A stretch of DNA of 64,000 bases from Solimonas fluminis (GTDB lineage: Bacteria; Pseudomonadota; Gammaproteobacteria; Nevskiales; Nevskiaceae): positions 1 to 64,000 of the forward strand of contig NZ_PSNW01000014.1 of the NCBI RefSeq assembly GCF_002930645.1, written 5' to 3'. Made by a program: the position numbers and the translations under genes. Position 1 is the first letter of the stretch; every line of letters begins with the position of its first letter. Positions 4,807-41,144 of this stretch are shown one piece after another. Below the pieces are notes generated by a model. It was given only the letters and a program-made list of their open reading frames with translations. It was not told the origin of the DNA and ran no database searches.

Positions 4807-4913
4807 GTTGGAATCTTTGAGGTTTACGCCGGGCCGAACAATCGCGGCCGGAACGACGGGCCGCGTAGTGTAACCGCCCCCCGGGCGCCGGAGCCAACTC
4901 CCGGCGCCTGAAA

Positions 4914-4942
4914 CGAAAAACGGCGCCCGAAGGCGCCGTTTC
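4914..4942 (-). terminator. Rho-independent terminator after the FmdB gene
   Basis: Stem AACGGCGCC (4919-4927) with GGCGCCGTT (4932-4940) and a 4-base loop. On the minus strand it is followed by TTTTCG. It lies between the FmdB-family stop and aspS, so aspS probably also has its own promoter. Confidence 0.75.
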
Positions 4943-4960
4943 AGGTCCCTGCCCGGCCGT

Positions 4961-5248
4961 TCAGGCCGCGGCGCAGCCCGGCTTGTCGCAGCCTGACGGG
5001 GTACAGGCCGCGCCCGCCGAAGCGCCGCTGTCGGCCTTGGAGTCGGCCGTGAGGTTCTTCTTGTTGCCGGACTTGAAGTCGGTCTCGTACCAGCCGCCGC
5101 CGCTGAGGCGGAAGCCGGCCGCCGACACCACCTTGGTCAGGGCCGACTTGCCGCAGGAGGGGCAAACGGTCTCCGGCGCATCGGAAATGCGCTGCATGAT
5201 CTCGGTCTCGACCCCGCAATCCTGGCAAACGTACTCGTAAATCGGCAT
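4961..5248 (-). CDS. FmdB-family zinc ribbon protein
   Basis: 95 aa. Starts [16 protein letters not shown] and has a second CPSCGK pair near residues 29-34. These two CxxC pairs form the small zinc ribbon typical of the FmdB/CxxC_CxxC_SSSS family. The second half ([21 protein letters not shown]) is the conserved family tail, followed by a variable Ser/Ala/Lys-rich end with three cysteines. The family was named for a putative regulator of formamidase, but its role in most bacteria is unknown. It commonly sits just upstream of aspS, as here. The start is fixed by the conserved MPIYEY sequence; longer in-frame extensions overlap the kinase gene and are spurious. Confidence 0.9.
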
Positions 5249-5331
5249 GGCAACCTCGGTGAATCGGCAAAAAACGGCAACGGGCGCGGAGGCTATAGGG
5301 TCGGGCCGGTGCTTTTCAAGGGGTGGCGCGC

Positions 5332-6519
5332 CTAGCGCACATCCGGCGGGATGCTGCGGGCCGGCTTCAGGGTGGCGGGCTGGACCGGCAGCTGGATGTG
5401 GAACTCGGCGCCCCTGGAGCGGCTTTCCGCCCAGATCTGGCCGCCGTGGTAGGCCACGATCTTGCGGCAGATGGCCAGGCCGATGCCGGTACCCTCGTAT
5501 TCCTCGGGTCCGTGCAGCCGGCGGAACACCGCGAACACGTTCTCGAGCTGGTCGGCCGGGATGCCGATGCCGTTGTCGATCACGGTGATGTGCCAGTCGT
5601 CCTTGCGGCGATCGCAGTAGACCTCGATCACCGGCTTGCCGCCCTGGGGCTGGAACTTGATGGCATTGCCGATCAGGTTCTGGAACAGCTGCAGCAGCAG
5701 GTTGTGGTCGGCGGTGATCTCCGGCAGGTCTTCCGCGATCAGCGTGGCCCCGGAGCGTTCGAACTCGCTCTCCAGCGCCTTGCGCACCTTGTCCAGCGTG
5801 TCGCCGAGCGGCTTCTTCTCGAACGGGGAATCGGTGCGGCCGACGCGCGACAGCGCCAGCAGGTCGTTGATCAGGGTCTGCATCTGCCGGGTGCCCTGCT
5901 CGATGAACTCGAGGAACTCCAGGGCATCGCCGTCGAGCTTGCTCTTGTAGCGCTGCGACAGCAGGCGCGAGAAGCCGGAGATGTTGCGCAGCGGCGCCTG
6001 CAGGTCGTGCGAGGTGATGTAGGCGAACTGCTCCAGCTCCGCCGCGGCGCGCTTCTGCTCGCCCAGGGACTTGCGCAGGTTGCGCTCGGCGGACTCGCGC
6101 AGCAGGATTTCCTCCTGCAGGCGGTGGTTGGATTCCTGCAGCTCCTGCGCGGAGCGCATCGCCAGCAGCCGGGGCACCAGCGGGATGATCGCCAGCGCGG
6201 TGGCCAGCGATACCAGGGCGGTCAGGACCTTGATCCAGCCCTGCAGGTAGTAGACCGGCTGCCAGATCGTGATGATGCCGAAGACATGGGTGATGCCGCA
6301 GAGCGTGATGAAGGCCGCGAACAGCCCGATCGCCCAGTTGAAGCTGATGCGGTTCTGGTAGCGCCGCAGGAAGTACAGCATGGTCACCGGAATCATGAAG
6401 TACGCCAGCGCGATGGTCAGGTCGCTCAGGACGTGCAGCAGGATCAGGTCCTTGCGGCCGACAAAGCAGAAGGCATGCGGCATCAGCGGCGTGGGGTCCA
6501 GCCAGGTCAGCAAGTTCAT
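5332..6519 (-). CDS. Histidine kinase with an ethylene-receptor-like membrane domain
   Basis: 395 aa. The N-terminus (about 25-120) has three membrane helices that read like the ethylene-binding domain of plant ETR1 and cyanobacterial Etr1: SDLTIALAYFMIP, then AAFITLCGITH, then KVLTALVSLATALA. The ETR1 residues Asp25, Tyr32, Ile35, Pro36, Ile62, Cys65 and His69 correspond to D33, Y40, I43, P44, I71, C74 and H78; in ETR1 the Cys and His hold Cu(I). A coiled coil (about 122-165) follows. Then come a HisKA H-box with H171 in SHDLQAPLR and a HATPase with N-box NLIGNAIKF (281-289), DNGIGI (315-320) and GTGIGLAI (343-350). There is no PAS, GAF or receiver domain. Its ATG overlaps the stop of the upstream receiver-GGDEF-EAL gene (ATGA), so the two are translationally coupled. 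Ethylene or copper binding is inferred from residues only. Confidence 0.9.
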   Translation of the reverse strand: MNLLTWLDPTPLMPHAFCFVGRKDLILLHVLSDLTIALAYFMIPVTMLYFLRRYQNRISFNWAIGLFAAFITLCGITHVFGIITIWQPVYYLQGWIKVLTALVSLATALAIIPLVPRLLAMRSAQELQESNHRLQEEILLRESAERNLRKSLGEQKRAAAELEQFAYITSHDLQAPLRNISGFSRLLSQRYKSKLDGDALEFLEFIEQGTRQMQTLINDLLALSRVGRTDSPFEKKPLGDTLDKVRKALESEFERSGATLIAEDLPEITADHNLLLQLFQNLIGNAIKFQPQGGKPVIEVYCDRRKDDWHITVIDNGIGIPADQLENVFAVFRRLHGPEEYEGTGIGLAICRKIVAYHGGQIWAESRSRGAEFHIQLPVQPATLKPARSIPPDVR

Positions 6520-8297
6520 ACCTCGAAGTCGGCAGTCCGGGAATCGGTCCGGCGTCGGCCGGCATCCCCTCGAAGGTAATCGGCCAGCGCCGCGGGCGCC
6601 AGCGGCGGACAGGGCCAGAAGCCCTGCACGTAGCGGAAGTCCAGGCCGGCAAAGCCTTCCAGTTCCTCTCCGGACTCGATGCCGGTGAAGAAGACCTGCA
6701 GCTGCAGCGCCGAAGCGGCCGCCAGCAGGCCCAGCAGAAAGCGGTGCGGGGTGCTGTTGCGGCCGTCGCGCGCGGCGGAGCGCAGCAGCCGGCGGTCCAG
6801 CTTGACGCCGGTGATCGCCGGCGAGGCCAGCGCATGCAGGTCGCCATTGCCCGGCAGGAAACCTTCCAGCACCATCGTGAAGCCGGCCTCGCGGAAGCGC
6901 TCCACGGGCACCGCCAGGCGGCCGTCGGAGGTGCCCATGGCCGCGGCATCCACCTCCAGCTGGACCTGGCCGGGGCTGATGCCTTCCTGGGCCAGCAGCG
7001 CCACCAGGCGCTCGGCCTGCTGCGGCGCCTGCAGTTCGGCGCCGGACAGGTTCAGCGCCAGCATCCCCGGCGCCAGGCCTTCTTCCCGCCAGCGGCGCCA
7101 GTCCCGCACCGCCAGGCGCGCCAGTTCCAGGCCGATGTCGGGCATGCGTCCCCCGCGCTCGAGCAGGGGCAGGAATTCGGCCGGCAACAGCAGGCCCTCC
7201 GGCCGGCGCCAGCGCAGCAAGGCCTCGATGCCGGCGACCTCGCCGGTGCCGTAGTGCAGCCAGGGCTGGAAATGGATCTCGAAACCGCCGTCGGCCACCG
7301 CCCTGGCCGCGTCGGTCGCGAGCTGACGCGCCAGCTCGCCGTCCCCGGCGGTGAAGTCGTCGCGCAGCGACAGGACGCCGCCGCCGCTGCCCTTGGCGCG
7401 GTACATGGCGGCGTCGGAGTGGTGCAGCAGCTCCTCCAGCGTCTCGCCGTGCTCCGGATACAGCGCGATGCCGACGCTGCAGCCGACCGAGACCGGCCGG
7501 CCCTCGATGCTCTCGATGCCGCGGATGCGCTCGACGATGCGCTCCGCCACCTCGCGGGCACGCGCCAGTTCGCCGATGGATGCCAGCAGGATCGCGAACT
7601 CGTCGCCGCCGATGCGAGCCAGGGTATCGCTGTCGCGCACCGATTCCCGCAGGATCTGGGCGATGCGCAGCAGCAGGGCGTCGCCCACGGCATGGCCGTG
7701 CCGGTCATTGACCGCCTTGAAGCGGTCCAGGTCCAGGAAACAGATGGCAAAACGCCGGTCCGCGGCGGCGGCCAGGTGTTGGCGCGCGCGTTCCTCGAAC
7801 AGCTTGCGGTTGATCAGCCCGGTCACCGGGTCATGGCTGGCCAGCTCGAACTGGCGCGCGCTGCGCTCCTCCAGTTCATGGACCTGGCGGTTGCGTTCCA
7901 GGGCATGGCGCACCACCTTCAGCAGGCGCTCGCCTTCGTACTGGCCCTTGACCACGTACTCCTGGGCGCCGAGCTGCAGGGCGCGGATCGCCGAGCTCTC
8001 GCAGTCCAGGCCGGTCAGCACGATCACCGCCAGCTGCGGCTGCAGGCTGCGCAGGCGTTCGACATTGGCCAGGCCCTGGCCGTCCGGCAGGCCCAGGTCC
8101 AGCAGGGCGCAATCGTGGTGGCTGCGGCGCAGCTCCTCCTCGGCATCGGCGATGCTGCGCACGGTCTTGAGCACCAGCTCGCCGCGGTCGATGGCCTCGC
8201 GCAGCGACTCCTTCAGCAGGCGCGCGTCGGCCGGCGAATCCTCGACCGCGAGGATCGAGAACGGGGCGACGACGGGTGGCTGCGGGGCGGCGGACAC
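6516..8297 (-). CDS. Receiver-GGDEF-EAL response regulator with a degenerate EAL domain
   Basis: 593 aa. The receiver (about 13-135) has acidic pocket E19-D20 and phosphoacceptor D67 in LLDLGLPDG. The GGDEF domain (about 150-310) has an intact GGDEF motif at 230-234 and an inhibitory-site RxxD at 221-224, so it should be able to make cyclic di-GMP. The EAL-type domain (about 325-580) keeps EALLRW (358-363), NLS (416-418) and K499. It has lost key metal-binding residues: the usual DDFGTG reads EGFLPG (478-483), AEGVET reads FTGIES (537-542), and the second E of LEITES is A451. It is therefore probably a binding or regulatory domain, not an active phosphodiesterase. Start is GTG (8295-8297) with GGAG 5 bases upstream. 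Second gene of the three-gene signalling operon. Confidence 0.93.
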   Translation of the reverse strand: MSAAPQPPVVAPFSILAVEDSPADARLLKESLREAIDRGELVLKTVRSIADAEEELRRSHHDCALLDLGLPDGQGLANVERLRSLQPQLAVIVLTGLDCESSAIRALQLGAQEYVVKGQYEGERLLKVVRHALERNRQVHELEERSARQFELASHDPVTGLINRKLFEERARQHLAAAADRRFAICFLDLDRFKAVNDRHGHAVGDALLLRIAQILRESVRDSDTLARIGGDEFAILLASIGELARAREVAERIVERIRGIESIEGRPVSVGCSVGIALYPEHGETLEELLHHSDAAMYRAKGSGGGVLSLRDDFTAGDGELARQLATDAARAVADGGFEIHFQPWLHYGTGEVAGIEALLRWRRPEGLLLPAEFLPLLERGGRMPDIGLELARLAVRDWRRWREEGLAPGMLALNLSGAELQAPQQAERLVALLAQEGISPGQVQLEVDAAAMGTSDGRLAVPVERFREAGFTMVLEGFLPGNGDLHALASPAITGVKLDRRLLRSAARDGRNSTPHRFLLGLLAAASALQLQVFFTGIESGEELEGFAGLDFRYVQGFWPCPPLAPAALADYLRGDAGRRRTDSRTADFEV

Positions 8298-8307
8298 GGC
8301 GACTCCA

Positions 8308-8790
8308 TCACTCCATGCGGGGCGGCAACTGGATCATGCCCAGCCAGCAGTCGCGGATCATGCTGGCCAGGCGCTCGAATTCCTCGAGGTCCACCGGCTT
8401 CACCAGGTAGGCATTGGCATGCGACTGGTAGCACTCGACGACGTCGCGCTCGGCCTTGGACGTGCTGAGGATCAGGACCGGGATCTGGCGCAGCCGGGGG
8501 TCGGCCTTGACCTCGCGCAGCACTTCGCGGCCGTCGCGGCGCGGCAGGTTCAGGTCCAGCAGGACCAGGTCCGGCAGCGGCAGGCGGGCATGCTCGCCCT
8601 CCCGGCGGAGCATGCGCAATGCCTGTTCCCCGTCCCGTGCAACATGCAGGCGATGGCGGAAGCCGGCGTCGCGGAAGACCTCCTGGGCCAGCCGCACATC
8701 GGCCGGGCTGTCCTCCACCAGCATCAGCACGTACTCGCGGCCATCCGCTCCCGCGGATACCGGCGCTCCCTCGCTGTCGATCATGGCCAT
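8308..8790 (-). CDS. Stand-alone receiver protein (Rcp1-like response regulator)
   Basis: 160 aa, a single CheY-like receiver. It has LMLVEDSPADVRLAQEVF, the phosphoacceptor Asp in LVLLDLNLPRRDG, the conserved ILSTSKAERD switch segment and Lys in AYLVKPVDLEEF. This subtype, with a long loop after beta 3, is typical of the small regulators that partner phytochrome-like kinases (Rcp1 type). There is no output domain, so it probably shuttles phosphate or acts by protein contact. I chose ATG at 8788-8790 because GGAG lies 8 bases upstream. A GTG at 8799 and an ATG at 8784 are alternatives. First gene of the operon with the GGDEF-EAL protein and the ethylene-receptor-like kinase. Confidence 0.9.
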   Translation of the reverse strand: MAMIDSEGAPVSAGADGREYVLMLVEDSPADVRLAQEVFRDAGFRHRLHVARDGEQALRMLRREGEHARLPLPDLVLLDLNLPRRDGREVLREVKADPRLRQIPVLILSTSKAERDVVECYQSHANAYLVKPVDLEEFERLASMIRDCWLGMIQLPPRME

Positions 8791-8899
8791 CCTCGGCACT
8801 CCATACGATACGGTAAAATTTAGCAGTGGAAATGGGGGCTTTCCTTGGATTGTTTATACCGTTTCCCGCCCTTCCATCGCTCCCCCCCATCCTTCCATC

Positions 8900-9763
8900 A
8901 TGCAGAACGACCTCAAGCGCGGCGCCGCCCACGCCATCTACGCGGCGGCGGCCTTTTCGCTGACCGGTGTCTGCGTCAAGGCGGCCAGCGCCCACGCGCC
9001 GAACGAGGTCGTGGTGTTCTTCCGCTGCCTGGTCAGCCTGCTGGTCCTGATGCCCTGGGTCCTGCGCCAGGGCGCCGACAGCCTGCGCTCGCAGCGGGTC
9101 GGCGGGCATCTGTGGCGGGCCGCCTTCGGCGTGGCGGCGATGTATGCCTTTTTCTACGCCATCGGCCGGCTGCCCCTGGCCGAGGCCATGCTGCTGACCT
9201 ACTCCACACCCCTGTGGGTGCCCTTCATCGCCTGGGCCTGGATCGGCGAACGCCCCCCGGCCGTGGCTTTCCCGGCCGCCCTGCTGGGCCTGATCGGCAT
9301 CGCCTTCATCGTCAAGCCGGGACATGCCCGGATCGACTGGCTGGCGGGGATCGTGGGCGTGGCCTCCGGGATTCTGGCCGGCTGCGCCATGGTCAGCATC
9401 CGCCGGATTTCCGATACGGAGCCGGCCCAGCGCATCGTCCTGTACTTCATGATCCTGGCCACGGCGATCTCGGCCGTTCCCCTGCTCTGGGCCTGGCAGA
9501 CCCCGGGCTGGGGCACCCTGGCCCTGCTGGTCGGGGCCGGCGTCACCGCCACGGCAGGGCAACTCAACCTGACCCGCGCCTATGCCTGGGCACCGGCCGC
9601 CCTGGTCGGCCCCTTCACCTACACCTCGGTGGTGTTCTCCGCCCTGCTCGCCTGGTGGATCTGGGACGAGAATCTCGACGGCTGGTCGGCCCTGGGCATG
9701 CTGCTGGTGGTGGCGACCTGCGCGCTGGTGGGCTGGAAGCGGACGCCGGCGGCAGAGGCGTGA
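8900..9763 (+). CDS. EamA-family (drug/metabolite transporter) permease
   Basis: 287 aa, about ten hydrophobic helices in two EamA repeats (roughly 8-135 and 148-280). Each repeat has the usual Pro/Gly-rich features, e.g. LAEAMLLTYSTPLWVPFIAW in the first and ALVGPFTYTSVVFSALLAWW in the second. Members export amino acids, purines, quaternary compounds or other small metabolites through the inner membrane. The substrate cannot be read from sequence. It is divergent from the receiver operon across about 110 bases and convergent with the CinA-like gene downstream. A single REP-like half-site (AGGAGCGGCCG) lies just after the stop at about 9774-9785. Confidence 0.9.
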   Translation: MQNDLKRGAAHAIYAAAAFSLTGVCVKAASAHAPNEVVVFFRCLVSLLVLMPWVLRQGADSLRSQRVGGHLWRAAFGVAAMYAFFYAIGRLPLAEAMLLTYSTPLWVPFIAWAWIGERPPAVAFPAALLGLIGIAFIVKPGHARIDWLAGIVGVASGILAGCAMVSIRRISDTEPAQRIVLYFMILATAISAVPLLWAWQTPGWGTLALLVGAGVTATAGQLNLTRAYAWAPAALVGPFTYTSVVFSALLAWWIWDENLDGWSALGMLLVVATCALVGWKRTPAAEA

Positions 9764-23968: not shown

Positions 23969-24046
23969 CGCGCCACACGACGGGCGGGGGCGTCCGCTGA
24001 CAGCATGGCGGGCAAGTGTACGCAGGGGAGCCGGGGGGCTGCCGTC

Positions 24047-27000
24047 ATGACAGAAAAGAGGCCGGGATTCCGCAGGCAGCTCATAGCAAGGCTGGCAGCG
24101 GCCGCCGGCTTCGCCCCGGGGCTCGCGCTGGCCACGCCCTCGGGCGGCGTCGTCACGGCCGGCGCGGCCAGCATCGGCAGTCCCCTGCCGGGCACGCTGC
24201 ACATCGACCAGACCTCGTCCGCGGCCATCATCAACTGGCAGGATTTCTCGATCGCGCAGGGCGAGTTCGTGCAATTCTCGCAGCCCAGCGCCTCGGCCGC
24301 GGTACTGAACCGCGTGGTCGGCGGCCTGCCCTCGGAGATCCTGGGCAACCTGTCCGCCAACGGCCGGGTCTTCATCATCAATCCGCAGGGCGTGATGTTC
24401 GGCGCCGGCGCGCGGGTGGATACCGCATCGCTGGTGGCGACGACGCTGGACATCGCCGACCAGGACTTTCTTTCCGGGAGGCTGGTCTTCGCCGGCAGCG
24501 CCGGCAGCCAGGCCCGCGTCGTCAACCATGGGCACATCGAAGCCGCCGACGGCGGCTTCGTCGTGCTGGCCGCTGCCGGAGTCTCGAACGAGGGCCTGGT
24601 TTCGGCGCAGCTCGGCGAGGTGGCCCTGGTTTCCGGCACCGCCATGACGCTCTCGCTGGACGGCAGCGGCCTGGTCGGTTTCTCCATCGACCGCGCGGCG
24701 CTGGGGGCCGCGGCCGGCGCCGACAATGGCGGCGAGATCACCGCCAACGGCGGCCGTGTGCTGATGAGTGCGCAGCTGGCCCAGGGGCTGGTCGGCATGG
24801 CAGTGAACAACCGCGGGCGCATCACGGCGCAGTCCATCGAGGAGCATGATGGCGCCGTGTTCCTGCGGGCAGAGGGCGGCGATATCGCACATGCCGGCGT
24901 CATCGACGCCTCCGGCGTGGACGGCCAGGACGGCGGGCAAGTCCGGATGGACAGCGATGCGGACATCCGGATCCTGGACGGATCGCGGATTCTCACCATC
25001 GGCGGCGGTCCGGATGCCGCGGGCGGCCGCGTCGGCGCCCTCGCGCAGGGCGTGCTGCGCTTCGAGCGTGGCGCGGGCATCGATGCCCGCGGCGACCGGC
25101 GCGGCGGCGAGGCAGGACTATCCGGCTACCAGGACCTCTACGTGCATGGCGACATCCGCGTGGGAGCCGGGGGGCGTGTCCGCCTGGACCCCGCCGCCAA
25201 TCCCCTGGTGATCGGCAACGGCTCCGCCAATGGCGGCTGCGACGCCAACATCTGCGAGGACGACCTGGAGTCCCGGCTGGCCGTCGGCGAAAGCTACATC
25301 GTCGCTTCCGCCGACGGCGTACGGGTCGAGGACCTGAGCGACCTGGATGCGGACGGCAACATCGTCGACGGCGTGCTCGATGGCCGCTCGACCGTCGCCG
25401 GCGTCCTTGGCGGCAGCCTGCTGCTGGGCGCCGGCACGATCAATTCCGACAACGGCCTGTTCGACCGCGGCAGCGACGGCTCGGTGAGCTTCGCCAACAC
25501 CGCCAACCGCGTCCGGCTCGACGGTGGCTTCGAAGCCTACTCCGGCACCGACAGCGGTTCGATCACCACCGGCGCGGTCGAGGCGGGTTACTTCATCGTC
25601 ATGCAGGCCGCTCAGGGCATCAGCACCGGCGACCTGGCGGTCCGCGGCAACCTCGCCCTCACCGCGGAGGATGGCGGCCTGAACAGCATCGTGGCGGCCG
25701 CGATCGCGCTCGACGGCGGCAGCGGCCCGATCACCGTCAATGGCGGCATCAGGGCCGAGGGCACGGTCGCCGGCTTCGACGGCGCCGACGATTTCGCGGT
25801 GCGCGGCGCCCGGGTCGACCTCTTTAGCGACGGCGGCGACATCACGGTGACGGGCCTGATCGATCTCGATGGCCATGTCGGCGCCGTGAACGGCACCAGC
25901 GACTGGTCGGCGATCGGTGCCCAGCTGCGCGTGGAGGCGGCGGGCGGCAGCGTCGACCTGCGCGGCCCGGTCGAGGTGGAGGGCAGCCTGGAGAGCGCCG
26001 GTGCCGACGGCGGCGCCACCGCCCGGGTCTTCGGCCGCGGCGCCGAGGTCGCCATCGGCCAGTTCGACGGCGGAGACCTGCCGCCCACCCTCCAGGTCAA
26101 GCTCGGCGGACCGGTGACGGTGAAGGGCACGGTCGGCCGCTTCGGCGCCGAAAGCGAGAGCGAAGCCATCGGCGCGTTCTTCCAGGTGCTGGCCAGCGGC
26201 GGCCCCGGCCAGGGCGATGACCTCTCCGCAGCCCATTTGCTGGGCCCGGTCGACATCCAGGGCAGCGTCGGGCCGGTCACCGGACACACCGCGCTGAAGG
26301 TCCGTGGCGGCTATGCCGAGATGGTGGTCTCCGGCGGCCTGCTGGACCTCGACGCCGCCCTGACGGTCAGGGGCCGCGCAACCGGCGCCGACGTCAGCAG
26401 CGACGTCGAGGTCAACGGCGCGGCGCTGTTCCTGCAGCAGAACGACGGCGACATCGACCTGGCGGGCCCCGTCACGGTCGACGGCGACATCGGCATCGAC
26501 GAGGACGGCCTGGAGAGCGGCCAGGTGGTGGCGTCGTTCTACACCGAGACCCGCGCCGCCGACGCGGTCATCACCGCCAGCGGCGGCAGCATCGGCACCG
26601 CCGGCCTGGACATCAGCGGCGACACCAGCCGGGTCGTCTCCGGCGGCGACAGCAACAGCAACGGTGTCTTCCTCAAGCTCGAGGCTCCGGACGGCGACCT
26701 GACGGTGAACGGCGACATCGTCGCCACCGGCACCCTGCTCTCGGCCAGCGCCCCCGACAGCCTGAGCGCCTCCGCAGCACAGGTGCTGCTGACCGGCGGC
26801 AGCGTGTACACCGACGAGGCCGGCACGCGCTATCTGCTGGCCGCGGGCAATGTCGATGTCGGCGGCGACATCCGCCTCCGCGGCACCACCGGCACCGTGA
26901 CCACCAGCGGTCCCGCCACGGTCAGCGGCAGCTCGCTCGGCATCAATGCCTACGGCGGCCGCTTCAGGCTGCAGGCGGCGCCAGCGGACCCGGGTTCCCT

Positions 27001-30000
27001 GGCCGCGGCAGCCACGGGCAGCATCGACCTCACCGGCGGCCTGGGCGCCACCGCCGGCGCGGCCCAGCTGACGGCGGAAGCCAGCAACGTGGCGATCAAT
27101 GCGACCACGGTGTCCATCGACGGGTCCGTGATCCTGGCCGGCACCGCCAGCGGCATCGTCACCGGCGACAACTCGGTGATTTCCGGCAGCCTGCTCAGCA
27201 TCCAGGCCGACGATACGCTGGGCGTCGGCGGCGACGTCGACGTCAGCGGCACCCTCGGCCCGGTCAACGAGGATGCGCCTGCGGAACAGGCGGCGGCCAA
27301 TGGACTCTTCGTGCGTGCGGCGAGCGCCGTGCTGAATGCCGATGGCGAGTGGGTCGACAGCGGGGACGGCGACGCCACTCTGCGCCTGCAGGGCCAGCTC
27401 AGGCTCGCCGGCACGACACAGGAAACGGTCGTGGTCGGCAGCGACAGCTTCGTCAACGGCGCCTATGCCGGCATCTTCGCGGCCTACGGCAACATCGCGC
27501 TGGACGGAGGCGTCGACGCCACCGGCCGCATGGACACGACCCTGGGCGGCGACTACCTCGCGGCCCAGGCCGCGGAGCTGCGCGTGGTGGCGCAGGACCT
27601 CTCGGTGGGAGACGACATCCGGCTCACCGGGCAGAACCGCGTGGTCGAGGGCGGCTACCAGAGCTTCGCCTCGGCCAGCTTCCTCCGGCTCAGCGCCCTC
27701 GGCGGCGACATCGCGGTCGATGGGGAACTGGCGGCTACCGGCAATGCCGAGGCCGGCGCAGAGCCCAGCCGCATCGTCGTCGGCGGGGAGTCCTACGTCC
27801 AGGCGGTGTCGCTGAACGCGGATGCCGACTACGGTTCCATCCGTGTCACGGGGCCGATCCGCGCCGAAGGCCATCTCGGCTACAGCGAAGCGGCGTACTC
27901 CAGTTTCATCAACGGCGCCTTCCTCGACATCCGCAGCGGCGGCCTCTTCTCCGCCGGCACCGAAGCGTCCGTGGACGACGGCATCGAGGTGCGGGGCACG
28001 CTCGGCTCGGTGAAGGGAGGCTTCGACACCAGCGCGGAGGCCGCCGACGTGCTGGTCGACGCCGCGGCCATCGACATCGCCGGAGACATCGTCCTCGAAG
28101 GCGGGACCGGCATGGTCGAGGCCGGCCACGCCTCGGCGATTTCCGGCAGCTATCTCGCACTCACGTCGAGCTACGACCAGCAGATCCGGGGCGGGCTCGA
28201 CGTCCGGGGCAGCATCGACAGCGTCGCGGGTCTCGAAGACGGAGACGGCGGAATCCTGCCGCCGGACCATCTCTATGCCCGGGCGGTGAGCGTCAGCGCG
28301 CGAAGCTACCTGGATGGCAGCCTCGGCATCGATGGCCCGGTGGTGCTGGACGGTTCCGTGGACAGCGTCGAGGCCGGCATGGACGCCTTCGTCAACGGCG
28401 TCTACCTGAACCTGGGCGGCACGGACGATTCCGGCGCGGGTTTCCTGAACCGGATCCGGATCGGCGGCGATGTCCGCGCCATGGGCAGCCTGGGCACCGT
28501 CAGCGCCGGCGACAGGCTGTTCGCGCGCGCCACCGAAATCGGCCTGACGGCCGTCGACGGCTCCTACTCCGAGGACGGCGCCGCCCTGGTCCTGGAGGGT
28601 GCCCTGGTCCTGGGCGGCGATGCCACCGGACGCATCGAAGGCGGCTTCCAGAGCTTCGTCAACGGCATCTCGGTACTGATGGGCGCCGCATGGGGCGACA
28701 TGCTGCTGGGCACCGGCATCACCCCTGACAGCAGCATCCTGGTCGACGGCGTGCCCTTGCAGGGCACCTCGATCTATGCCGCCGGCCGGCTGCAGGAGGT
28801 ACAGGTCTACGGCGGCTCCTTCGTGCAGGCCACCGAGTTCGACCTGTCGACCTCCAGCTTCGGCCACGTCGACGTCACCGGCGATACCCGTCTCCTGGGC
28901 AGCATCGGCGCCATCACCTCGGCGGAATCGGACCTGCTGACCGTCAACGCCGTCAGCGCCCGCTTCAACACGGAGCTGGGCGACATCCTGCTGCACGGCA
29001 ACCTGGGCGCCAGCGGCACGCTGAACGGCGTCGGCGCCGGCTCCAGCCTGTTCGCGCGCGGCATCGAACTGGGGGTGTTCGCCGGCAACGGCAAGCTGGA
29101 GATCGACGGTGACCTGGATGTCGCCGGCAGCAGCAATGGCGAGGTCACCGGCTTCAACGATCTCTACGTCAACGGCGCCTACGTGCAGCTGATCACCGTG
29201 GACGACGACGTGATCATCGACGGCGACGTCCGCCTCTTCGGCAGCGTCGCCCGCGTCCAGGGCGAGGACTACGTGTTTGCCTCCGGGGCCGAATTGCAGG
29301 GCCTGCCGGACGGCGCCTTCGTCATCGGCGGCGGCCTGGATGTCGAGGGTTCGGTCAGCAGCTACGAGGCTCGCGACTCCAGCGGCCTGTTCGGCGGCGA
29401 AGTGTTCATCTTCTCCGGCAGCACCGACCAGGAAGGCCGCACCGAGATCGACGGCCCCGTCAGCGTGACCGGCACGCTGGGCACGGTCACCGGCGGCCAG
29501 GACCTTTACGGCTACGGCGCCTTCGCCTCCTTCAAGAGCCTGCAGGGCGACGTCAGGCTGCTGGGGCCCGTCACCGTCACTGGCGAGATCGCCCGCATCA
29601 CCGCCGGCGACAACCTGACCCTCAGCGGCTCCGGCTTCTGGGCCGACGCCGACGACGGCAGCGTACAGCTCGCCGGCCCCCTGCAGGTCTCCGGCACCGT
29701 CGGCTTCGTGGATGGCGCCCACGGCGCCTTCCTCAACGGCAGCTTCGCCTACCTGACGGCCACGGAGGGCGACCTCGAAATCTCCGGCGGCGCGGAACCG
29801 GAAGGCCCGGTCCCGCTCGCGGAAGCGCCGCGGGTCTCGGTCACGGGCAGCCTGGTCGAGGTCCTCGGCGACAGCGGCATCGCCGCCTCCGGCGCCGACC
29901 TCCTGCTGGAACGCTCCGGCAGCGAGCCCGGCGGCCTGCTCAGCATCGCCGGCGACATCGTCGAGACCGGGTCCGTCGGCCTGTTCGATGTCGCCGATCT

Positions 30001-31315
30001 GGAGAGCAGCTCGCGCTTCAGCGGCGGCCTGCTGCTCAACGCCAACGACGGCGGCGTCGCCTTCCGCAATATCACGGCCGACCACGGCTTCATCTACTTC
30101 AACCAGGACTCCGCGATCGGCGAGGCGACACTGACCGGACGGGAATACCTGGAGATCGTGACCCCGTCGGGCGCGCCGACACTGGATGCACAGCGCCTGC
30201 GCCTGGAGGCCCCGGAGCTGTTCGTGAGCGCCAACCTCGAAGCCGGGCTGCTGGAGCTCTCCGCCGGCGAGGCCCTGGCCGTCTCCGCGGCCACCCTCGG
30301 CGGAGGCCAGGTCCATCTCTCCAGCGGCGGCCTGCTGCAGTTGGCGGACGACCGCGAAACGACCGGCGCCGCCACCGTGATACGCGGCGACCGGCTGCGG
30401 CTCGAAGGCGCCCGCATCATCAGCGACGAAGGCACCCTGATCGACGCCGGCGGGCTGGACGTGGTGGCCGGCGAGACCATCCGCCTCGCCGGCCTGGTGC
30501 GCGTCGGCGATGGCCAGGCGCAGTACAGCGGCGACCCGGCGCTGCTCGAGCAGATCGGTGCCGGCCTGCCCGGCGTACTGCCGGCCTCGGCGCGACCCAA
30601 TGCCTACTTCCAGGCGCCGACGGTGGCCCTGGCCGAGCTGGAGCTGGCCGGCGACTACCTGCACATCGAGGCCAACACCCTGCGCCTGGGCTCACTGACG
30701 CTGAACGACGGCACGCTGGTGCAGCTGGACCCGCTGGTGAACCTGCCCTTCTTCACCGAGAGCGTGGACGTGACCGACGCCGGCCTGGACAGCGTCAAGG
30801 ATCGCCTGGCTACCGAGGACAACCGCGTCATCCCCAACCTGGGCAGCTTCAACAGCGACGAGGGCGAGACCGGCGATCGCAAGCTCGGCGATCGCCCGGT
30901 GCTGAACGACGGCCGCACCGATGCCGCCGGCAATCCGCAGTTCCAGGTCGGCGACGGCGTACCCAACCTGGGCCAGCTGATCCTGCAGTCGGGCCTGGCC
31001 GACAACACCGTGGTGATCGGCGCCAGCGACTACACCGCCGGCATCCAGGTCGCCGACCAGCTGGTGGTGGACGTGCTGCCCAGCAGCACCAACTTCGTCT
31101 TCGCCACCTCGGCCAAGATGCTGATCACCGAACCGATCCGCACCAACGGCCGGGTGCTGGTGCTGGGCGGCGGCGTGGAGACCGACCGCAATACGTTCTA
31201 CTCGGCCGTGGTGGACCAGATCAACGCCTACTACGACGCCCTGGACCCCGATCCGGCGGAAGAGGACGACGGCGAGGTCGAGGAGAAGAGCACCGACGGC
31301 CAGGAGTGCAACTGA
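24047..31315 (+). CDS. Giant two-partner-secretion exoprotein with many beta-helix repeats
   Basis: 2,422 aa from ATG 24047; an earlier in-frame ATG at 24005 is less likely. Residues 1-30 are a signal peptide (basic RRQLIAR, hydrophobic run, ALA). About 30-280 is the TPS/filamentous-haemagglutinin N-terminal domain, with NWQDFSIAQGEFVQFSQP and the signature INPQGVMFGAG (NPQGV in place of the usual NPNGI). The rest is repetitive, Gly/Asp/Val-rich and predicted to be a long beta-helix. It has no RGD, toxin or peptidase motif that I can see. The C-terminal 150 residues differ in composition, end in an acidic tail (EEDDGEVEEK) and finish with a Cys. A TpsB transporter gene is needed for export, but none lies next to it. 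Probably a secreted adhesin or surface fibre. The codon pattern leaves the antisense strand open for 1,848 codons, which is an artefact. Confidence 0.93.
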   Translation: MTEKRPGFRRQLIARLAAAAGFAPGLALATPSGGVVTAGAASIGSPLPGTLHIDQTSSAAIINWQDFSIAQGEFVQFSQPSASAAVLNRVVGGLPSEILGNLSANGRVFIINPQGVMFGAGARVDTASLVATTLDIADQDFLSGRLVFAGSAGSQARVVNHGHIEAADGGFVVLAAAGVSNEGLVSAQLGEVALVSGTAMTLSLDGSGLVGFSIDRAALGAAAGADNGGEITANGGRVLMSAQLAQGLVGMAVNNRGRITAQSIEEHDGAVFLRAEGGDIAHAGVIDASGVDGQDGGQVRMDSDADIRILDGSRILTIGGGPDAAGGRVGALAQGVLRFERGAGIDARGDRRGGEAGLSGYQDLYVHGDIRVGAGGRVRLDPAANPLVIGNGSANGGCDANICEDDLESRLAVGESYIVASADGVRVEDLSDLDADGNIVDGVLDGRSTVAGVLGGSLLLGAGTINSDNGLFDRGSDGSVSFANTANRVRLDGGFEAYSGTDSGSITTGAVEAGYFIVMQAAQGISTGDLAVRGNLALTAEDGGLNSIVAAAIALDGGSGPITVNGGIRAEGTVAGFDGADDFAVRGARVDLFSDGGDITVTGLIDLDGHVGAVNGTSDWSAIGAQLRVEAAGGSVDLRGPVEVEGSLESAGADGGATARVFGRGAEVAIGQFDGGDLPPTLQVKLGGPVTVKGTVGRFGAESESEAIGAFFQVLASGGPGQGDDLSAAHLLGPVDIQGSVGPVTGHTALKVRGGYAEMVVSGGLLDLDAALTVRGRATGADVSSDVEVNGAALFLQQNDGDIDLAGPVTVDGDIGIDEDGLESGQVVASFYTETRAADAVITASGGSIGTAGLDISGDTSRVVSGGDSNSNGVFLKLEAPDGDLTVNGDIVATGTLLSASAPDSLSASAAQVLLTGGSVYTDEAGTRYLLAAGNVDVGGDIRLRGTTGTVTTSGPATVSGSSLGINAYGGRFRLQAAPADPGSLAAAATGSIDLTGGLGATAGAAQLTAEASNVAINATTVSIDGSVILAGTASGIVTGDNSVISGSLLSIQADDTLGVGGDVDVSGTLGPVNEDAPAEQAAANGLFVRAASAVLNADGEWVDSGDGDATLRLQGQLRLAGTTQETVVVGSDSFVNGAYAGIFAAYGNIALDGGVDATGRMDTTLGGDYLAAQAAELRVVAQDLSVGDDIRLTGQNRVVEGGYQSFASASFLRLSALGGDIAVDGELAATGNAEAGAEPSRIVVGGESYVQAVSLNADADYGSIRVTGPIRAEGHLGYSEAAYSSFINGAFLDIRSGGLFSAGTEASVDDGIEVRGTLGSVKGGFDTSAEAADVLVDAAAIDIAGDIVLEGGTGMVEAGHASAISGSYLALTSSYDQQIRGGLDVRGSIDSVAGLEDGDGGILPPDHLYARAVSVSARSYLDGSLGIDGPVVLDGSVDSVEAGMDAFVNGVYLNLGGTDDSGAGFLNRIRIGGDVRAMGSLGTVSAGDRLFARATEIGLTAVDGSYSEDGAALVLEGALVLGGDATGRIEGGFQSFVNGISVLMGAAWGDMLLGTGITPDSSILVDGVPLQGTSIYAAGRLQEVQVYGGSFVQATEFDLSTSSFGHVDVTGDTRLLGSIGAITSAESDLLTVNAVSARFNTELGDILLHGNLGASGTLNGVGAGSSLFARGIELGVFAGNGKLEIDGDLDVAGSSNGEVTGFNDLYVNGAYVQLITVDDDVIIDGDVRLFGSVARVQGEDYVFASGAELQGLPDGAFVIGGGLDVEGSVSSYEARDSSGLFGGEVFIFSGSTDQEGRTEIDGPVSVTGTLGTVTGGQDLYGYGAFASFKSLQGDVRLLGPVTVTGEIARITAGDNLTLSGSGFWADADDGSVQLAGPLQVSGTVGFVDGAHGAFLNGSFAYLTATEGDLEISGGAEPEGPVPLAEAPRVSVTGSLVEVLGDSGIAASGADLLLERSGSEPGGLLSIAGDIVETGSVGLFDVADLESSSRFSGGLLLNANDGGVAFRNITADHGFIYFNQDSAIGEATLTGREYLEIVTPSGAPTLDAQRLRLEAPELFVSANLEAGLLELSAGEALAVSAATLGGGQVHLSSGGLLQLADDRETTGAATVIRGDRLRLEGARIISDEGTLIDAGGLDVVAGETIRLAGLVRVGDGQAQYSGDPALLEQIGAGLPGVLPASARPNAYFQAPTVALAELELAGDYLHIEANTLRLGSLTLNDGTLVQLDPLVNLPFFTESVDVTDAGLDSVKDRLATEDNRVIPNLGSFNSDEGETGDRKLGDRPVLNDGRTDAAGNPQFQVGDGVPNLGQLILQSGLADNTVVIGASDYTAGIQVADQLVVDVLPSSTNFVFATSAKMLITEPIRTNGRVLVLGGGVETDRNTFYSAVVDQINAYYDALDPDPAEEDDGEVEEKSTDGQECN
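26690..29770 (+). repeat. Imperfect tandem coding repeats in the exoprotein
   Basis: Units of about 40 residues recur, often pairing into 70-90-residue blocks (about 210-270 bases). A typical unit reads I-x-G-x-L-x-V-x-G-x-x-G-x-V-x-G followed by SFVNGxYLxL or LFARAxEIGL. Clear SFVNG-like signatures start near 27448, 27901 (SFINGAF), 28384 (AFVNGVY), 28651 (SFVNGIS), 29164 (LYVNGAY) and 29725 (AFLNGSF). Conservation is at the protein level, so these are old, diverged repeats. Confidence 0.75.
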
Positions 31316-37991: not shown

Positions 37992-40900
37992 ATGGCTTTC
38001 CCGATGAATGCTCAGGCCCCCTCCCCGAAAACCGCCGCCCTGCCGGTCCTGCGCTGGCACGAGACGCTGCAGTTCAAGCTGGTCGCGATGCTCACGCTGC
38101 TGCTGCTGCTGGCGCTGGTGGCGGCCGCCATCGCCGGCAAGTTCCTGGTGCACGATGAACTGACCGGCGAAACCTTCCGCTACGAGCAGGAGAGCGGCCG
38201 CCGCCTGGCGCTGGAGATCGGCCAGTACGCGGCTCAGGCCGAGGAGCTGGCGCGCAGCATCGCCGCATTGGTGCCGCATGCCCATCCGGACAGCCTGAGG
38301 ACGCTGGTCCCCGCCCTGGCAGCCGGCACCGGCTATGCCGCGGTGGGCATCTGGCCCGAGCCCTACACCCTGCGCAGCGACGCCGAGCGCGCCAGCCTGC
38401 TGTGGATGCGCGGCGCCGATGGCCGGCTGCAGCAGCGCGAGGACTACAACGATCCGCGCGTGGTGCCCTACTGGCGCGAGCGCTGGTACACGCCGGCGCG
38501 CCAGCTGCAGGAGCCGCGCTGCAGCTGGAGCCTGAGCGTACGCGATCCGCTGTCCAAGGCGGCCACCCTCATCTGCAGCCTGCCGCTGCAGCGCGAGGGG
38601 CGCTTTGCCGGCGTGGTCACCGTGGCCCTGCCGATCCCGGCCGTTCTGGAAGCCTTCGCCGCCCGCAGCCGCGACCAGCGCGGCTACTCCCTGCTGCTGG
38701 ATGCGGAGAACAACATCCTGGCCGCCTCGCCGGCCCTGGCGGAAAAGCTGCCGCAGGACAAGCCGCTCAACCTGGCCGGCCTGGCGCAGGAGTTCGCCGC
38801 CTACAACCCGCTGGCGCTGGCCCTGCACGAACGCAACGAGGCACTGCTGGCCGAGTTCGCGCAGTCGCCGCTGGCGGCGGCGGCCAAGAAGCTGAAGGCC
38901 GATACCCGCGAGATGTCGCCGGAGGAAGCCCAGACGGCGATGCTGGCGCTGTGGATGGGCGGCAAGGATCGCCCGCTGTGGGAAGCCGAGCCGGGCTTCG
39001 TGCGGCTGGGCGCGGACCCGGTGCTGGGCGGCCGCAGCTACGTCTCGGCCTTCGAACTGGGCTACCCCGGCTGGCGCCTGCTGCGCGTGACCTCGGCCAG
39101 CGAGGGTTTCGCCGGCGCCGATGCGCTGTTCCTGCGCATGCTGGGACTGACCGCGGTGGCCCTGGTCATCCTGGTCGCGCTGCTGTACCTCGGCTTCCGC
39201 GTGCTGGTGCTGGGGCCCCTGTCGAAGATGGTGGAGCGCATGTCGGAAACCTCCGGCACCAACGACACCCTGGGCCTGCTCGCCAACGACAGCGCCGCCA
39301 ACGAACTGGGACTGTTCGCGCACTGGCACAACGAGCGCGTGCGCCAGCTGCGCGACGTCACCGACCGCAACATCAGCATCAACTCGCAGCTCGCCACCGA
39401 GACCAGCGAGCGCCGCAAGCTGCAGGAATCCTCGGCGCGCCAGCTGGAGCGCCACTCGCTGGCCCTGCAGGCCCTGGACGAGGCCGTGATCAGCACCGAC
39501 GAGAACGGCCGCGTCGAGGACATGAACCCGGCCGCGGAGCGCCTCACCGGCACGCCGCTGAAGGCAGCGCGCGGCCAGGCCTTCGCCGAGGTCTGCGTCA
39601 CCCGCCACGCCGGCAGCGACGGCGCCTCCGACAGCTACTCCGATCTCGCCCGCGCGGCGATGGAGCGCGGCGCCCGCATCGAGCATGGCGACAGCATGGT
39701 GATCGTGCCGCGCGGCGGCGCCGAGCGGCCGGTGATGGCCACGGCCACGCCGATCCGCACGCGCAGCAACCGCATCGCCGGCGCGGTGGTGGTCCTGCGC
39801 GAGCGCAGCACCGCGCAGGCCGCGGCCGGGCCAGGCCGCTCGGCCACCGAATCGGCGCGGGTCGCCGGCATCAAGGATCCGCTCACCGGACTGCCCCTGC
39901 GCGGCGCCTGCGAGCAGCGCCTGCGCGAGTTGATCGACGCCGCCAAGCTGGCGCCGCGCGGCCACGCCATGCTGTGGCTGGACCTGGACCATTTCTCGCG
40001 CGTCGCCGACAGCGGCGGCACCGCGGCCGGCGATGCCGTGCTGGTCCGCCTGTCCGAGCTGCTCGCCAACCTCACCGGCAGCGCCGGCGAACTGTTCCGC
40101 ATCGGCGCCGATCGCTTCGCGATCCTGCTGGGCAATTCCAGCGCCGACCGGGCGCGGACCTTCGCCGAGGCGCTGCGGCGCACGGTGGCTTCCACCCGCT
40201 TCGCCTGGGAGGCGCGCCAGTACAACCTGACGCCGAGCATCGGCATCACCGAGTTCAATGGCCAGTCCGAGGGGGCGCTGGACGTGATGCGCCGCGCCGA
40301 GGAAGCCTGCGCCGCGGCCAAGCGCGCTGGCCGCAACAGCATCAAGGTCTACGACGAGAGCATGAGCCGCCACCGCGCGCCGGTCGATGACGCGATCTGG
40401 GCACGCCGCATCCGCAACGGCCTGGAGCAGGGCCTGCTCCACCTGACCACGCAGACCCTGCAGCAGGCTCAGCCGCGCCGCGGGCAGATGCTGGAGCTGC
40501 AGCTGGCGCTGGAGGACGAGGAAGGCTTCTGGACGCCGGCGCCGGGCTTCATGCCGGCGGCGGAGCGGCAGCGCCTGGCTGGCGAACTGGATCGCTGGAC
40601 CGTGCAGCGCATCCTAGGCCAGCTGGCACGCCAGCCGGAATCGCTGGGCGACCTGGGGCTCCTGTTCATCCCGCTGTCCGGCGTTTCGCTGATCGACCCG
40701 CGCTTCATCGAGAGCGTGATCGAGCAGCTCGGCCAGAGCAATGCCGTGACCGCGGACCGGATCTGCTTCCTGGCCGACCAGAAGGCCCTGCTGGCGCACC
40801 CGCAGTCGGCTGCGAATTTTGCCGGCACGCTGCGTTCGATGGGCTGCCGCCTGGCCATCGACGGCTTCAGCGCCCGCGGCGCGGGCGAACTGGCCCTGCT

Positions 40901-41144
40901 GCGCGCGCTGCCCGCCGAATTCCTGCGCGTGGATGCCACGCTCTACCCCGCCGCCGCCAGCGATCCGGGCGAGCAGGCCCTGGCGGAGTCCACGCTGCGC
41001 CTGGCACGTGCGCTGGAGCGCCGCCTGATCGTGCACAACCTCGACGATCCGCGCCTGGCGGAACTGTGGCGGCGCATCGGCGCCGACTACCTGCAGGGCA
41101 ACGCCCTGGCGCGCGCCGTCCCCCTGGTCTTCGCCTCCGGCTGA
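37992..41144 (+). CDS. Membrane sensor with PAS and degenerate GGDEF and EAL-like domains
   Basis: 1,050 aa. One membrane helix (about 29-52), a periplasmic Cache-like sensor (about 55-375) and a second helix (381-405). A linker with a coiled coil (about 440-485) and a PAS domain (about 486-606, ALDEAVISTDENGRVEDMN) follow. Then comes a GGDEF-type domain (about 625-785) whose signature is GADRF (705-709), and an EAL-type domain (about 800-1045). There ELQLALEDEEG replaces EALLRW, the DDFGTG position reads IDGFSAR and AEGVET reads VHNLDD. Neither output domain should be catalytic. It is more likely a cyclic di-GMP receptor that signals across the membrane, in the manner of LapD, which is inference. 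Two Met near the start (1 and 5) are both possible. Confidence 0.88.
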   Translation: MAFPMNAQAPSPKTAALPVLRWHETLQFKLVAMLTLLLLLALVAAAIAGKFLVHDELTGETFRYEQESGRRLALEIGQYAAQAEELARSIAALVPHAHPDSLRTLVPALAAGTGYAAVGIWPEPYTLRSDAERASLLWMRGADGRLQQREDYNDPRVVPYWRERWYTPARQLQEPRCSWSLSVRDPLSKAATLICSLPLQREGRFAGVVTVALPIPAVLEAFAARSRDQRGYSLLLDAENNILAASPALAEKLPQDKPLNLAGLAQEFAAYNPLALALHERNEALLAEFAQSPLAAAAKKLKADTREMSPEEAQTAMLALWMGGKDRPLWEAEPGFVRLGADPVLGGRSYVSAFELGYPGWRLLRVTSASEGFAGADALFLRMLGLTAVALVILVALLYLGFRVLVLGPLSKMVERMSETSGTNDTLGLLANDSAANELGLFAHWHNERVRQLRDVTDRNISINSQLATETSERRKLQESSARQLERHSLALQALDEAVISTDENGRVEDMNPAAERLTGTPLKAARGQAFAEVCVTRHAGSDGASDSYSDLARAAMERGARIEHGDSMVIVPRGGAERPVMATATPIRTRSNRIAGAVVVLRERSTAQAAAGPGRSATESARVAGIKDPLTGLPLRGACEQRLRELIDAAKLAPRGHAMLWLDLDHFSRVADSGGTAAGDAVLVRLSELLANLTGSAGELFRIGADRFAILLGNSSADRARTFAEALRRTVASTRFAWEARQYNLTPSIGITEFNGQSEGALDVMRRAEEACAAAKRAGRNSIKVYDESMSRHRAPVDDAIWARRIRNGLEQGLLHLTTQTLQQAQPRRGQMLELQLALEDEEGFWTPAPGFMPAAERQRLAGELDRWTVQRILGQLARQPESLGDLGLLFIPLSGVSLIDPRFIESVIEQLGQSNAVTADRICFLADQKALLAHPQSAANFAGTLRSMGCRLAIDGFSARGAGELALLRALPAEFLRVDATLYPAAASDPGEQALAESTLRLARALERRLIVHNLDDPRLAELWRRIGADYLQGNALARAVPLVFASG

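Follow-up and report, generated by a model that had tools for sequence, protein, structure and literature searches.

Positions 8790 down to 5332 of the 64,000-nucleotide stretch analysed here (the window) hold an operon of three minus-strand genes, encoding in order a stand-alone receiver, a receiver-GGDEF-EAL protein and a histidine kinase with an ETR1_N membrane domain of the ethylene-binding type. Judging from the sequence, we consider it moderately likely that this operon is an ethylene-receptor two-component system with a cyclic di-GMP (c-di-GMP) output. We favour this reading because two architectures converge on GGDEF within the order Nevskiales, where 16 of 21 ETR1_N kinases, the window's included, stand beside a receiver-GGDEF-EAL-type partner (with an intact GGDEF motif in 11) and where 16 further ETR1_N domains are fused to GGDEF directly. 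The kinase itself is a further member of a known family, bacterial ethylene receptors such as SynEtr1 and AzoEtr1 having already been published; what is new is the receiver-GGDEF wiring of the operon and the existence of the direct GGDEF fusions. The genome that holds the window measures 4.67 Mb, and its host is, to judge by the kinase, a Solimonas-like member of the Nevskiales (Gammaproteobacteria), so called because the kinase finds its best-scoring named matches in two Solimonas records, at 91% identity, in a search that may omit the very nearest.

The kinase and its two partners

The first-pass annotation of this region had described an ethylene-receptor-like kinase in an operon with an Rcp1-type receiver and a receiver-GGDEF-EAL protein, and we found the three genes arranged as it stated. 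The kinase is coupled to the c-di-GMP gene, its start overlapping the preceding stop by 4 nucleotides (6516-6519), and the stand-alone receiver lies upstream, separated from the GGDEF gene by 10 nucleotides. A profile search that had been set beforehand as a test returned ETR1_N over residues 25-121 of the kinase (Pfam; E 3.6e-34, 117.4 bits against a curated cut-off of 27), and the genome search scored the same domain at an E value of 7.9e-35. As claimed at first, none of the seven residues linked to ethylene binding is missing (D33, Y40, I43, P44, I71, C74 and H78), and they align with those of AzoEtr1, GeiEtr1 and GeiEtr2; the Geitlerinema genome has a third ETR1_N match, a weak one, which has only two of the seven and serves as a negative control. 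K97 is also present and matches the lysine that is paired with D25 in published modelling. Ethylene binding by the window kinase is predicted from these residues. AlphaFold2, run on a 30-sequence alignment, places helices at 23-53, 61-86 and 90-119, followed by a long HisKA helix, and puts C74 and H78 in an i/i+4 relation on one predicted helix, with a pLDDT (predicted local distance difference test) of about 49-70 in the membrane part. The kinase core is complete, as had been proposed, with both HisKA (162-226) and HATPase_c (271-380) found by Pfam; the same scan found no PAS domain. H171 is conserved in at least 90% of 30 aligned sequences, the window's included. The best 50 of 479 fold matches in the PDB were histidine kinases or proteins holding their core, and their coverage is that of kinase cores; searched by sequence against the PDB, the membrane domain by itself had no match at E up to 10.

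The label of Rcp1-type receiver is borne out as close kinship to the phytochrome partners Rcp1/RcpA (1i3c, 1jlk and 1k68; 8e-37 to 1e-36 over residues 18-155), and the best PDB match, 5te9 (4e-43), a receiver without further name, scores better. This gene has two candidate ATG codons, at 8790 for a product of 160 amino acids and at 8784 for one of 158. The phospho-acceptor aspartate is kept in both receivers of the operon. In the receiver-GGDEF-EAL protein, the GGDEF motif is intact at residues 230-234 and an RxxD motif (RDSD) stands five residues before it, which gives the protein the receiver aspartate, GGDEF and RxxD of a receiver-controlled diguanylate cyclase. TIGR00254 (GGDEF) is the only NCBIfam model above its curated cut-off among the 25 matches listed for each of the operon proteins. 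The EAL half lacks the complete motifs of EAL phosphodiesterases: DDFG is replaced by LEGF (within VLEGFL) and AEGVE by a motif of the FTGIE type, with T for its first E, so that three catalytic positions are lost. We take DDFG and AEGVE to be the catalytic and defining positions on the strength of the EAL literature. The protein is thus predicted to be a diguanylate cyclase with an inactive EAL domain, and c-di-GMP synthesis is expected because GGDEF, RxxD and the receiver aspartate are intact and the EAL motifs are broken. 

ETR1_N loci within and beyond the Nevskiales

Our survey of the order covered 61 genomes, namely the window's own and those of 60 relatives, the choice being weighted towards its genus and family. 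The domain is present in 37 of them, at 41 places in all, of which 40 were analysed and a fragment (G015:C169) was left out. It had been suggested that such a domain would be an unusual input for a gammaproteobacterium; within this group it is not, given its frequency in the order and the published proteobacterial receptors, among them AzoEtr1 with binding data. The 40 loci comprise 21 kinases, 16 ETR1_N-GGDEF or ETR1_N-GGDEF-EAL fusions, one split pair of frames (L148) and two others (L136, L147), these classes having been assigned by phmmer with domains from the window as queries, which under-calls distant kinases and leaves 19 of 84 rows without a class. The two others encode ETR1_N proteins of about 400 residues (L136, 5931-7142 on the plus strand; L147, 5139-6368 on the minus strand) beside a receiver and two kinase-like frames, and no Pfam family scored above its cut-off in their C-terminal halves.

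An Rcp1-type receiver lies on the same strand within 3 kb of 19 of the 21 kinases, and all seven ethylene-binding residues are likewise present in 19 of the 21. In the window's genus (the window, L121, L126 and L127) the motifs of the GGDEF protein are intact and its gene adjoins or overlaps the kinase frame. None of the 11 partners with intact GGDEF has a complete DDFG or the first E of AEGVE, and the first aspartate survives in four (as LDQF). A set of 16 named loci from Solimonas, Hydrocarboniphaga, Nevskia, Stagnimonas, Panacagrimonas and broader-named bins, partly the same records as the order survey, all have the receiver beside ETR1_N, and 12 have the partner (one split over two frames, L050; one without GGDEF, L035). 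Relatives of the divergent EamA transporter beside the operon occur in 13 of the 21 kinase loci, the window's included, and in two families; the operon therefore sits at an old site.

The second architecture is represented in the window's own genome, whose other ETR1_N gene (G000:C9:62799-63080; L112, 5805-7691 on the plus strand, its start being the nearest upstream ATG as chosen by script) encodes ETR1_N-PAS-PAS-GGDEF with N in place of D33. GGDEF or GGEEF is intact in all 16 fusions of the order, and PAS was found in each of the eight that were scanned by Pfam. Together with L148 they make up a single cluster distinct from the kinases (support 97/93) in a tree of 84 domains that is built on few columns and leaves 26 of its 81 inner branches open. 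The fusions keep C74 in 15 of 16 cases and H78 in all. Mutation of the corresponding aspartate (D25) eliminates ethylene binding in AtETR1, where modelling pairs D25 with a lysine; because D33 is changed in 12 of the 16 fusions, their ethylene binding is in doubt, and the altered site may point to another ligand. Covariation of D33 with K97 (Fisher p 4e-11, related rows being counted as independent) is only suggestive. A broader proposal, which we offer tentatively and with some doubt, is that ETR1_N in the Nevskiales serves specifically as an input to c-di-GMP and does so in two forms, as the kinase operon and as a separate fused lineage of ethylene- or copper-gated c-di-GMP enzymes. No description of ETR1_N-GGDEF fusions was found among the papers listed by searches of one open-access library or in the parts covered of PMC11819568, PMC4686702, PMC7700396 and PMC6682694; Papon & Binder 2019 and a 2019 Small Methods paper may show them.

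Background rates were taken from two samples that both include the window's own genome and share some genomes with each other. Across the class, ETR1_N matched in 16 of 369 genomes (12 over the cut-off), and across the phylum in 29 of 398 (28 over the cut-off). The class survey yielded 19 places, of which three were already counted (G000 twice, G039), four fell under the cut-off and 12 were analysed; the phylum survey yielded 33, of which four were already counted (G000 twice, G146, G068), one was a fragment (G675:C1:1045533), one fell under the cut-off and 27 were analysed. Outside the order the link between ETR1_N and GGDEF is weaker. The eight loci with a neighbouring GGDEF gene include five from one family, one of them (L224) with a weak ETR1_N match of 35.8 bits; the neighbour is on the same strand in three of the eight (L165, L213, L215) and on the other strand in four (L161, L208, L214, L224) and also at L200. 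Pfam confirmed receiver-GGDEF neighbours at L161, L165, L213, L215 and GeiEtr2. As a control within the window's own genome, 4 of 46 HATPase_c matches (any protein type, the window kinase included) lay within 3 kb of GGDEF, two of these pairs sharing a strand; of 48 HATPase_c matches in all, the two under the cut-off were excluded, and 31 GGDEF matches were used, one of them under the cut-off. One outside locus, L155 on a Novosphingobium ES2-1 plasmid typed as conjugative, has an ETR1_N kinase and a single receiver adjoining a type II CRISPR-Cas locus.

Proposed mechanism and its alternatives

In the mechanism that we propose, the three-helix domain would bind Cu(I) through C74 and H78, and ethylene would bind on the copper and lower autophosphorylation at H171, with the inverse-agonist sign that has been proposed for plant and bacterial receptors. 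In air, the kinase would phosphorylate two receivers, the Rcp1-type one and that of the GGDEF protein. The phosphorylated GGDEF protein would, to go by its motifs, make c-di-GMP under RxxD product inhibition, its EAL domain being inactive or a mere binding module. Ethylene would hence lower c-di-GMP and favour motility over attachment, a sign adopted here because the window kinase is assumed to follow the inverse-agonist model of Azospirillum brasilense.

A number of observations weigh against this scheme. The sign is not universal, since ethylene raises biofilm in Synechocystis. Confidence in the predicted structure of the membrane part is modest, at the pLDDT given above. H78 is replaced by Y in 2 of the 21 kinases of the order, and D33 is changed in 12 of the 16 fusions (to N in six, H in four, E in one and S in one). 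Among the 16 partners GGDEF is degenerate in three and deleted in two, and there is no GGDEF-type partner at L117, L131, L133 or L138, while at L115 the contig ends inside a neighbouring EAL-type frame. Three GGDEF-EAL fusions retain DDFG and AEGVE, making c-di-GMP breakdown possible there. Outside the order GGDEF is fused (two) or within 3 kb (eight) in only 10 of 39 loci. Finally, the stand-alone receiver, present in 19 of 21 loci, may carry the main output. The initial suggestion that the operon turns ethylene or a copper-bound signal into c-di-GMP changes is strengthened by conservation in much of the order and by the GGDEF fusion in the same genome, and is weakened where the partner is degenerate, truncated or absent. 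In the Stagnimonas-type kinases L041 and L045 (the same as L129 and L134), H78 has become Y and the partner has lost GGDEF (DQEQF/DDEQF), and sensor and output may, to go by these motifs, be decaying together in that lineage; L044 and L122 are counter-cases, having lost the GGDEF motif yet kept H78.

The prominence of the stand-alone receiver is the core of the strongest alternative, which we regard as somewhat unlikely: that signalling runs mainly through the Rcp1-type receiver and that the GGDEF-EAL protein is an accessory being lost. Of 21 loci, 19 have the receiver and 16 the GGDEF-type gene, which in five of these is without a usable GGDEF; AzoEtr1 is described with a single-receiver neighbour that its authors predict to be the partner, and a search out to 5 kb from it turned up no GGDEF; and the Novosphingobium ES2-1 kinase has only a receiver beside it in an incomplete gene table. 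The window's genus, however, keeps an intact GGDEF protein adjoining or overlapping the kinase, and both receivers keep the phospho-acceptor aspartate, so both may be used. It is also conceivable, though we think it unlikely, that the membrane domain has ceased to sense ethylene and feeds the same kinase-to-c-di-GMP output from another cue (Cu(I) itself, a different gas or small alkene, redox or the state of the membrane). The substitutions at H78 in the kinases and at D33 in the fusions would suit such a cue, as would the fact that just 50 of the 84 ETR1_N domains of the wider family have all seven residues, and none of nine papers naming both Solimonas and ethylene looked relevant, judged by titles and the openings of abstracts. 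Yet the window copy has all seven residues together with the D-K pair, as 19 of 21 kinases of the order have all seven, and the AzoEtr1 domain with the same residues binds ethylene. Many GGDEF-EAL proteins act as phosphodiesterases and the Pfam match to EAL is strong (3.4e-39), but an output of c-di-GMP breakdown, with GGDEF as a regulatory GTP-binding module, is very improbable given LEGF for DDFG and T for the first E of AEGVE in the window, the intact GGDEF and RxxD, and the lack of a complete DDFG or of that E in any of the 11 partners with intact GGDEF.

Nevskiales include hydrocarbon degraders, and in Solimonas aquatica a copper monooxygenase operon has been reported whose function is unknown, so we considered ethylene as a food signal. 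This idea was dropped: AMO-family matches occur in 9 of the 61 genomes but not in that of the window, and ETR1_N is present in seven of those nine as against 37 of all 61.

The features of the operon are collected in Table 1. A scan of 4900-9000 found no promoter, and the same interval has two terminator-like sites against 1.7 expected. The EamA-type transporter is listed as a conserved neighbour and is not counted among the parts of the signalling system. Elsewhere in the window, both on the plus strand, lie a further c-di-GMP gene at 37992-41144, whose 1050-residue product is a PAS-GGDEF-EAL protein, and a gene at 24005-31315 for a product of 2436 residues that carries a two-partner secretion (TPS) domain and is likely secreted as a large exoprotein.

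Table 1. Coordinates of the operon and its divergent neighbour in the window
Feature	Position	Strand	Evidence
Stand-alone Rcp1-type receiver, first gene of the operon	8308..8790	-	Response_reg 4.6e-21; PDB Rcp1/RcpA ~1e-36
Receiver-GGDEF-EAL protein, 593 amino acids, GTG start	6516..8297	-	Response_reg, GGDEF 1.1e-45, EAL 3.4e-39 (Pfam)
Receiver domain of the GGDEF protein, residues 15-128	7914..8255	-	Pfam; VEDSPAD and ALLDLGLPDG present
GGDEF domain, residues 153-305	7383..7841	-	Pfam; intact GGDEF, RxxD
EAL domain, residues 330-565	6603..7310	-	Pfam; catalytic motifs replaced
ETR1_N histidine kinase, 395 amino acids, ATG start	5332..6519	-	Pfam; overlap with preceding gene
Membrane domain of the ethylene-binding type (ETR1_N), residues 25-121, three predicted helices	6157..6447	-	Pfam 3.6e-34; residue table; predicted helices
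Codon of D33	6421-6423	-	Residue table
Codon of C74	6298-6300	-	Residue table
Codon of H78	6286-6288	-	Residue table
Codon of K97	6229-6231	-	Residue table
HisKA, residues 162-226; phospho-acceptor H171 (SHDLQAPL), codon 6007-6009	5842..6036	-	Pfam; alignment
HATPase_c, residues 271-380	5380..5709	-	Pfam
Divergent EamA-type transporter, conserved neighbour	8900..9763	+	EamA 2.2e-29

Comparison with known systems

Arabidopsis ETR1 shares with the window kinase the membrane domain and the binding residues D25, C65, H69 and K91, and differs in that the plant output runs mainly via a Ser/Thr kinase and not by phosphotransfer. The remaining counterparts in ETR1 are Y32, I35, P36 and I62. SynEtr1 of Synechocystis (slr1212, with slr1213) is likewise an ethylene receptor kinase with phosphotransfer to a response regulator, but it senses light as well, the regulator switches on transcription of a small RNA, and ethylene raises biofilm. 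PcrK/PcrR of Xanthomonas campestris offers a gammaproteobacterial plant-hormone receptor kinase that alters c-di-GMP through its regulator, with the differences that PcrK has a CHASE domain and responds to cytokinin and that the regulator is a phosphodiesterase. Closer in gene content is GeiEtr2 of Geitlerinema (Baaleninema) PCC 7105, an ETR1_N kinase beside a receiver-GGDEF-EAL gene. For GeiEtr1 as for GeiEtr2 the complete set of seven required residues is reported, and the strain is said to bind ethylene; the paper mentions a grouped gene with a diguanylate cyclase domain, and no test of c-di-GMP was found in the parts of it that were covered. In contrast to the window kinase, GeiEtr2 is a long PAS/GAF kinase with a C-terminal receiver, its GGDEF gene follows the kinase, the EAL match is far stronger (2.3e-80), and the stretch analysed showed no stand-alone receiver.

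The most instructive comparison is with AzoEtr1 and AzoRR-etr1 of A. brasilense Sp7, which share with the window ETR1_N with the same seven residues, a histidine kinase and a neighbouring single receiver. The membrane domain of AzoEtr1 binds ethylene (PMC11819568). AzoEtr1 contains a PAS domain, and no GGDEF gene is among the neighbours described for it, whereas the window kinase lacks PAS (Pfam) and is coupled to a receiver-GGDEF-EAL gene. In A. brasilense, either ethylene or loss of AzoEtr1 lowers biofilm, and ethylene lowers c-di-GMP in metabolomics (PMC11819568, 2025); the authors regard the pathway from receptor to responses as unknown and find that an inverse-agonist model fits. By analogy, the window operon is a candidate wiring for an ethylene-to-c-di-GMP pathway of this type, for it offers a complete short route, with kinase, receiver and diguanylate cyclase encoded together, where that of A. 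brasilense was still unexplained in 2025. In these non-photosynthetic bacteria a plant-type gas receptor domain is linked to c-di-GMP both by operon and by fusion, and such wiring could explain how bacteria translate a gas made by plants into a choice between settling and moving. The natural variants (D33 to N, H, S or E, and H78Y) are useful for probing the workings of the copper site.

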